Part shown: in pieces, positions 14,693 through 16,223 of the stretch
Layout: every line of letters starts with the position of its first letter
Numbering within the stretch: position 1 is the first letter of the stretch
IMG/VR virus record: IMGVR_UViG_3300032316_000604
Location: 1 to 21,190 of that record
DNA from: a virus
Strand: one strand, 5' to 3'
DNA: 21,190 nucleotides
The notes under the pieces: generated by a model
The model's database searches: none
What the model was told of the DNA's origin: nothing
The model's input: the letters and a program-made list of their open reading frames with translations, nothing else
Position numbers and translations under genes: made by a program

Positions 14693-15061
14693 ATGACATA
14701 TATATCAATAAAGGCGCAACTAAAGGGCATTAGCGATAAAGAATTAGCTAAGCAGACTCTATTAAAAGATTATATAAGTGAAGATAATTTAACTATTTAC
14801 ACGGTATTAAGATCGGTTAGCTCTAGCGGTATGACCCGCCATATCTCATTAAAGTTCGCGCAGGGTAATGACATCTATGATATAACTTACTTAGCTGCGG
14901 AAGCTATGGGTGACCGTGTAAGTGAACGTAATGGCTACAACACTATTAAGGTTAGCGGTACAGGTATGGATATGGGATTTCATCTAGTCTATAACCTCTC
15001 TAGCGTATTATTTCACGGGCAAGAGCGCGCAGGTTACAAGCTCTCGCAACGGTGGCTCTAA
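14693..15061 (+). CDS. Conserved actinophage-type protein of unknown function (122 aa)
   Basis: The central block VLRSVSSSGMTRHISLKF (residues 38-55) and the C-terminal GMDMGFHLVYNLSSVLF with GYKLSQRWL (91-122) match a small protein type I recall as widespread in actinobacteriophages, with no established function. The fold looks alpha/beta. Purine-rich GAGAGAGTAGAGAG precedes the ATG. Its stop overlaps the next start (TAATG), so translation is probably coupled. A GTGAGC/GCTCAC hairpin (14646-14671) lies in the leader. The family resemblance is recalled, not searched. Confidence 0.75.
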   Translation: MTYISIKAQLKGISDKELAKQTLLKDYISEDNLTIYTVLRSVSSSGMTRHISLKFAQGNDIYDITYLAAEAMGDRVSERNGYNTIKVSGTGMDMGFHLVYNLSSVLFHGQERAGYKLSQRWL

Positions 15062-15428: not shown

Positions 15429-15460
15429 CTATCGGTCACCGCTTACGCGGTGGCCGGTGG
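15429..15460 (+). repeat. Hairpin element, copy 1 (upstream of clamp gene)
   Basis: A stem of GGTCACCGC (15434-15442) with GCGGTGGCC (15447-15455) around TTAC, 9 bp with one G-T pair, followed by GGTGG. It matches copy 2 at 28 of 32 positions. The stem base change at 15442/15447 is compensated. It lies in the leader of the clamp gene, followed by a CCGGT/ACCGG hairpin. Confidence 0.75.
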
Positions 15461-15499
15461 CCGGTATCTAACCGGATCTAATGAGAGAGAGATAACACT

Positions 15500-16111
15500 A
15501 TGGACACTATGACAGATCAGGGGCTGACCTTAACGATTAAGCCCGCCCTGCTTAATGACCTATTGACCGGCGCACTGGTGGCCACCGATAAGGCCGCGCC
15601 TAACGGCCTTGTAAGTGTGCTGCTAGTAAGTGACGGCCAGACCTTAACGGCTACCGCTACAGATCGCTATCGCTTAATAACCGGCAGCGTGGCCGTAACC
15701 GGTGGCACTTTCACCGCGCTAGTTAGCGCGGCAGATATAACCCGCATAATTAAGGCAGCTAAGGATCAAGCCACCGGCGCAGATCTAACCCTATCCCTTA
15801 TCGGTGATCTATTCACCGTTAGCGGCAGCGGTAACACGATCACCGCTAGGGTTATGAGCGATCGCTATCCGCCTTATGAGCAGCTATTCACCCGTAAGGT
15901 GGCCGTAATTAAGCCGGCACCGGTGGAAAATAGCGGCATAGTTATCGGCCTTAATTCTAAGCTGCTCGCCACTTTCGATAAGGTGCCGCACACTAAAGGC
16001 GCACCTATGAGTTTAGACCTTGTAAGTGCTAACGATCCGGTACTAATTAAGATCCCGCACGATTCGATCACGTGGCGGGCGATCCTTATGCCTATGAGAT
16101 ACGCAGAATAG
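15500..16111 (+). CDS. Short DNA polymerase sliding clamp (DnaN-like, 203 aa)
   Basis: This is a beta-clamp relative, the ring that tethers the replicative polymerase to DNA. Signatures are TLTATATDRYRL (residues 48-59; compare ATDGHRL in E. coli DnaN domain 2), RVMSDRYPPYEQLF (117-130; compare the DGRFPDY segment) and the terminal ILMPMR (195-200; compare VVMPMRL). Cellular beta has about 370 residues in three domains. Here domain 1 is absent, domain 2 looks complete (about 10-130), and only the last half of domain 3 is present (147-203). That is three beta-alpha-beta units. The gene starts after GAGAGAGA and is flanked by twin hairpin elements. A decoy of the host clamp is the main alternative. 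Confidence 0.85.
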   Translation: MDTMTDQGLTLTIKPALLNDLLTGALVATDKAAPNGLVSVLLVSDGQTLTATATDRYRLITGSVAVTGGTFTALVSAADITRIIKAAKDQATGADLTLSLIGDLFTVSGSGNTITARVMSDRYPPYEQLFTRKVAVIKPAPVENSGIVIGLNSKLLATFDKVPHTKGAPMSLDLVSANDPVLIKIPHDSITWRAILMPMRYAE

Positions 16112-16127: not shown

Positions 16128-16159
16128 CTATCGGCCACCGGTTATCCGGTGGCCGGTGG
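16128..16159 (+). repeat. Hairpin element, copy 2 (downstream of clamp gene)
   Basis: A perfect 9-bp stem of GGCCACCGG (16133-16141) and CCGGTGGCC (16146-16154) around TTAT, followed by GGTGG. It is the partner of copy 1, and the two lie 699 bp apart in the same orientation. A TACTAGGC copy follows at 16165. No T-run, so not a classic terminator. Confidence 0.75.
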
Positions 16160-16223
16160 TCTGCTACTAGGCAGACCCCTATCCCGTGAGTGCGGGAGAG
16201 GGCGAGAGAGAGAGGGCGAGCGC

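Follow-up and report, generated by a model that had tools for sequence, protein, structure and literature searches.

The window analysed here is a 21,190-base virus contig from IMG/VR. It encodes a 203-residue protein, referred to as the mini-clamp, which is composed of three units joined through a linker and carries the residues of a docking pocket. The features of the locus are the following:

14693..15061, + strand: upstream gene of 122 residues, phrog_12365, function unknown, also located 5' of the mini-clamp gene in relatives G001 and G006
15483..15491, + strand: probable ribosome-binding site GAGAGAGAG, assigned from the sequence, a purine run about 8 bases 5' of the ATG
15500..16111, + strand: mini-clamp gene, open reading frame of 203 residues with an ATG start
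15527..15694, + strand: unit 1 (residues 10-65), first unit of beta domain 2 (2a), from the AlphaFold2 model and the beta alignment
15659..15676, + strand: pocket segment T54-L59 (TDRYRL; E. coli 172-177), mapped from the published list of pocket residues (PMC11139829)
15707..15853, + strand: unit 2 (residues 70-118), second unit of beta domain 2 (2b), from the AlphaFold2 model; the PF02767 match ends here
15854..15943, + strand: linker (residues 119-148), with low pLDDT in blocks 131-150; the beta alignment jumps about 65 residues
15869..15886, + strand: pocket segment P124-L129 (E. coli 242-247), from the mapping of pocket residues
15944..16087, + strand: unit 3 (residues 149-196), second unit of beta domain 3 (3b), an orphan, from the AlphaFold2 model and the PF02768 second half in relatives
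15953..15955, + strand: pocket residue N152 (E. coli N320), from the same mapping
16082..16099, + strand: pocket segment I195-R200 (ILMPMR; E. coli 360-365), from the same mapping

The linker bears the pocket motif PPYEQL and takes the place of the absent 3a unit of domain 3. Runs of the GAGAG or AAGAG type likewise precede the mini-clamp starts of many relatives. The phrog_12365 protein is a possible functional partner of the mini-clamp. GC-rich GGTGGCCGGTGGCC-type repeats are located on both flanks of the gene (window 15451-15470 and 16134-16160) and may form regulatory hairpins.

The mini-clamp is confirmed as a relative of the beta clamp with three β-α-β-β-β units, equivalent to 2a, 2b, and 3b, and the match to beta is far beyond chance. 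The domain 2 profile PF02767 matches the window protein with an E-value of 2e-3, under the curated cut-off, and 27 of 41 family members, the best at 4e-10. The profile of processivity factor PHROG_947 (368 positions) matches at 1.6e-12, in an alignment that starts only at profile position 130. In the relatives, only positions 71-121 of the 121 in the domain 3 profile PF02768 match, which is its second half. Thermotoga beta 1vpk gives a profile match (4e-11) that covers domain 2, passes over the opening half of domain 3, and stops at the C-terminal MP-[MI]-R motif. Profile matches in the PDB reach 1e-16. These alignments bear out the claim of the original prediction that the protein is without domain 1 and without the first half of domain 3.

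The AlphaFold2 model of the monomer, based on an alignment of 41 relatives, has a pLDDT of 87.7 and a pTM of 0.86 and contains units at residues 10-65, 70-118, and 149-196, with a poorly defined linker between units. An earlier model from four sequences was worse (pLDDT 71). In this model, the strand ahead of helix 3 (residues 147-151) is hardly formed. VIA-align places residues 8-203 on residues 134..402 of Mycobacterium tuberculosis beta (3rb9), with 183 residues aligned, an rmsd of 2.1 Å, and a Z-score of 18.7, and aligns 188 residues to residues 123..366 of E. coli beta (Z 19.1); Z-scores of the structural alignments to beta clamps reach 19.6 overall. The range of the beta chain exceeds the aligned count by about one unit, a difference that corresponds to unit 3a, and the Thermotoga alignment independently jumps the same stretch. 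The predicted count of three units per chain is thus upheld by the model and the structural alignments. A PCNA-like chain with four units is ruled out by the three helices, and hence three units, of the AlphaFold2 model. The trimeric clamps PCNA and T4 gp45 have a similar chain length and the same basic unit, but are built from two domains with four units per chain. It is also ruled out that another phage gene encodes the missing units, since the domain 1 profile PF00712 gave nothing above the cut-off in 14 records, with weak matches falling inside the mini-clamp frames, and PF02768 matched only mini-clamps in the phages, again only with its second half.

The mini-clamp resembles DnaN (PF00712/PF02767/PF02768) in the fold of its three units (Z 18-19, 2.1-2.5 Å), its pocket, and its C-terminal MPMR. 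Unlike the canonical DnaN chain of three domains and six units, it has half the units and no known dimer interface, and it has additional conserved lysines at predicted channel-side positions. The dimer interface of beta is formed by Ile78 and Phe106 with Ile272 and Leu273, and by ion pairs (PMC11139829). The units bearing these residues are lost from the mini-clamp, and the canonical interface is absent. The interface and pocket residues lead us to infer a unit order of 1b-1a-2b-2a-3b-3a around the ring, in which the retained 2b-2a-3b form one contiguous arc. The original prediction had also suggested a decoy role through pairing with the host clamp. This has become less likely, as the pairing units (1b and 3a) are those missing; any decoy role would run through the kept pocket, in competition for the ligands of the host clamp.

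The initial search gave three relatives of 199-211 residues, and two rounds of profile search identified at least 166 in IMG/VR, from which 85 open reading frames were extracted. All 85 are 189-215 residues long and free of internal stops. Homolog length had been proposed as a check, and it identifies the short form as the real length rather than a deletion. Neither four units per chain nor full-length homologs were found, the two outcomes that the original prediction had named against itself. The ratio dN/dS is 0.16-0.33 across seven pairs, which indicates purifying selection. A pseudogene, an assembly deletion, or a degenerate remnant is ruled out by the constant length (n = 85) together with these ratios. 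The notion that the mini-clamp is what decay or faulty assembly has left of a full-length phage clamp could draw on the annotation of Bcep781 gp15 as a "fragment" and on the homologous sequence of phage SPI1, which is spread over two reading frames. It is nevertheless extremely improbable, given 85 intact relatives of the same length under such selection, diverse hosts, and a conserved pocket. In Skermania phage SPI1 (L033:4508-5195), the two frames with mini-clamp homology are annotated as two open reading frames; a frameshift, a sequencing error, and a real split are candidate causes.

The same core is present in actinophages, namely Gordonia Jace gp60, Rhodococcus REQ2 Orf51, Mycobacterium Tortellini gp57, and Gordonia Horus gp57, and the three-unit build is thus found in phages of mycolic-acid actinobacteria. 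A search with the protein of phage yong1 gave 261 phage records, mostly from phages of Salmonella, Escherichia, Klebsiella, and Vibrio, and several of these phages were propagated on E. coli K-12 MG1655. Examples are EP23, 64795_sal3, a Hafnia lambdoid phage with the gene placed between cII and O/P-like genes, and Bcep781 (annotated as "DNA Pol III b subunit fragment"). By alignment, the proteins of EP23 and 64795_sal3, Bcep781 gp15, and the four named actinophage proteins are members of the family itself. PHROG_3007 and PHROG_12598 share the three-unit build and the pocket by alignment and belong to the same family. Two scans of bacterial genome contigs gave no prophage relatives, and the yong1 gene had no DNA match in E. 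coli genomes.

The relation of the family to beta is already known from GenBank, where its members are mostly named DNA polymerase III beta subunit or sliding clamp. Many records are instead labelled "RusA-like resolvase". The mini-clamp is a "RusA-like Holliday junction resolvase" in RefSeq NC_004333.2, NC_016652.1, NC_041888.1, NC_047974.1, and others, a label that probably derives from the names of PHROG_3007 and PHROG_12598. Both of these profiles are called "RusA-like resolvase" and match the window protein at 0.13 (PHROG_3007) and 5e-8 (PHROG_12598); other members score better. The resolvase label is ruled out, as a Pfam scan to an E-value of 10 gives PF02767 alone. Bcep781 has a distinct gene annotated as Rus (gp22) besides the mislabelled gp15. 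In the literature that could be searched, we found no description of the three-unit build, its range, or its host-matched pocket, and the remark in the original prediction that it knew of no such architecture is a fair one.

In beta, domain 2 and the final part of domain 3 together build the pocket that receives clamp-binding motifs, and a review lists the pocket residues (PMC11139829). All 18 of the 18 E. coli pocket residues map onto the window protein. Mean entropy is 0.63 in the pocket columns and 1.63 in the alignment as a whole, and 20,000 random draws of columns never gave a value as low. At the positions equivalent to E. coli 152, 174, and 175, actinophage mini-clamps mostly carry L, R, and Y/F, and the same pocket type occurs in actinobacterial DnaN (Tsukamurella and a Streptomyces plasmid DnaN). 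The mini-clamps of proteobacterial phages have R, G, and H at these positions, the same as E. coli DnaN. From this pocket type, we infer that the host of the window phage is an actinobacterium.

In a tree from all columns, each phage group falls near the DnaN of its host type. After removal of 32 pocket-region columns, all mini-clamps are on one side of a branch that separates them from full-length clamps (97/96). The DnaN sequences in the trees are a small sample that includes plasmid paralogs. An AU test between a single clade and an origin of the two groups from their hosts rejected neither (p 0.18 and 0.12). Since the pocket agrees with that of the host under either history, the ligands of the mini-clamp pocket are probably host proteins. 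Clamp-binding motifs are not in excess in the phage open reading frames, and no motif-bearing partner was found in the window family, some of whose contigs are fragments, which likewise points to partners that are probably encoded by the host.

The position of the mini-clamp gene differs among phages. In the lambdoid phage yong1 it is located between cII and O/P-like replication genes, and in Serratia phage Eta it precedes the helicase gene. Within the family of the window phage, it belongs to a divergent arm of small open reading frames, away from the helicase and Toprim genes, a location that also suits a host-takeover protein. The relatives G001 and G006 (38-40 kb) are apparently complete genomes with circular permutation, as the capsid gene at one end of G001 is followed, at the opposite end, by the gene that comes next in G006. 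Both carry genes for a DnaB-like helicase and a Toprim protein; G001 also has those for a PD-(D/E)XK nuclease and a sigma-70 region 4 protein. Neither G001 nor G006 contains a detectable polymerase of family A or C or an AAA protein of a clamp loader. PolA or PolIII-alpha was found in 0 of 19 records and a clamp loader in 0 of 14, some of the contigs being fragments. The phages nearest the window therefore probably borrow the host replicase. The lack of a polymerase is not universal, since EP23 encodes a family A polymerase of its own.

By alignment to beta, the residues predicted to line the channel side are largely basic in the window family. A lysine occupies the position of E. coli Gln149 in 93% of the window family; Gln149 is a reported DNA contact (PMC11139829). 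Lysine or arginine is present at positions 201, 202, and 208 of helix 2b in 95, 80, and 98% of the window family, respectively. Position 329 is a lysine in 100% of the window family and basic in 88% of the proteins from proteobacterial phages. Full-length clamps are basic in 0-29% at positions 149, 201, 202, 208, and 329. The conserved lysines suggest DNA binding and seem to argue against a purely soluble decoy. The window-family proteins are near neutral, with net charges of -6 to +2. REQ2 has a net charge of +14 and Tortellini of +8, with C-terminal tails rich in Lys, Ala, and Pro, and Horus has a basic N-terminal tail; the window family is without such tails. The basic tails of REQ2, Tortellini, and Horus (L030:19962-20762, L031:19971-20672, L032:19887-20603) resemble histone H1-like tails.

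We tentatively hypothesize, at slightly less than even confidence, that the mini-clamp works on phage DNA and gathers host replication proteins through its pocket. The kept arc 2b-2a-3b carries the complete pocket for clamp-binding motifs, with the units of the known dimer interface lost. Bound to phage DNA, the protein may recruit polymerase III alpha, the delta subunit of the clamp loader, and others, and serve as an alternative processivity hub or steer host proteins to phage templates. The polymerase of EP23, the near-neutral charge of the window family, and the divergent arm of small open reading frames count against this proposal.

An alternative, which we consider unlikely, is a soluble decoy that stays off the DNA, imitates the pocket of the host clamp, titrates its ligands (polymerase III alpha, delta, Hda, repair polymerases, and MutS/MutL), and stops host replication or repair at takeover. 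In its favor, the retained units are exactly those of the pocket, which is host-matched and more conserved than any other part, the dimer-interface units are lost, and the window-family genes are located in a small-ORF arm typical of takeover genes. Twort gp168 is a precedent for phage targeting of the host clamp (PMC11139829); like the proposed decoy, it is a phage protein directed at the host clamp system, but it binds the host clamp channel and is not described as a clamp fragment. A decoy would, however, have no need for conserved channel-side lysines or basic tails, the yong1 and Eta genes are in a replication operon, and it would backfire on any phage dependent on host polymerase III unless the timing differed.

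The orphan unit 3b would most likely pair with 3b of a second chain, since it has lost its intertwined partner and the strand leading into its helix hardly takes shape in the monomer model. The 3b:3b' pairing would produce a C-shaped half ring of six units, and the union of two such half rings at the free 2b edges would form a 222-symmetric ring of 12 units, equal to six domains. Ring closure may matter, as a monomer mutant of E. coli beta still bound DNA and did not support processive replication (PMC11139829); without it, the mini-clamp may be unable to work as a clamp of the classical kind.

A closed tetramer of four three-unit chains, with 12 units and 222 symmetry, is one form that the activity on phage DNA could take; its geometry is possible, although we regard it as rather improbable. 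Its ring would consist of 3b:3b' pseudo-domains and 2b:2b' edges and expose two identical faces with four host-type pockets, an arrangement to which we assign an equally low likelihood. Three units per chain divide 12, in keeping with the six-domain rule of known rings (PMC9690074), the model retains the 2a-3b geometry of beta at 2.1 Å, and the hardly formed strand 147-151 fits a strand awaiting a second chain. Against the tetramer, no phage clamp loader was found, the host loader would face an unfamiliar interface, and both new interfaces are hypothetical.

It is also conceivable, if unlikely, that the mini-clamp is an open non-ring factor by analogy with the herpesvirus proteins UL42 and UL44, present as a monomer or a C-shaped dimer that charge would hold on DNA. 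Positively charged non-ring clamps of viruses without clamp loaders bind duplex DNA directly (PMC9690074). UL42 and UL44 have a clamp fold able to work without a closed ring or a loader; unlike the mini-clamp, they have four units per chain and pair with the polymerase of the virus. The conserved lysines, the basic tails, and the missing clamp loader of these phages favor the open form. The virus-encoded polymerase that UL42 and UL44 partner was, however, not detected in the phages nearest the window, and the net charge of the window family is near zero. The open factor and the tetramer are specific forms of the general proposal of activity on phage DNA, and their likelihoods are not to be added to it.

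To our knowledge, every well-described clamp ring consists of six domains from two or three chains. A widespread, host-matched chain of 1.5 domains is a new ring that breaks this rule, a clamp relative that functions without a ring, or a mimic that steals ligands, and each of these outcomes would be new. If the tetramer is true, hundreds of phages carry a ring hidden under the names "beta subunit" and "RusA-like resolvase". The assignment corrects a common misannotation. The mini-clamp also marks the minimal piece of a clamp that selection retains for docking, and the docking pocket is the target of clamp-directed antibiotics.

The proteobacterial members of the family differ from the window protein in their E. 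coli-type pocket and in a few more residues after the third helix. About 5-7 residues are added there after the helix of unit 3 (L104, L106, L107, L115-L117); they bring the length closer to that of "a"-type units and may be linked to self-pairing. In proteobacterial phages, the mini-clamp gene is accompanied on the same strand by a gene of about 255-274 residues (L104:5080-5844, L116:4143-4964, L107:4789-5598, L115:3675-4490, L117:2241-3056), which is annotated as a ParB-like partition protein in Serratia phage Eta.
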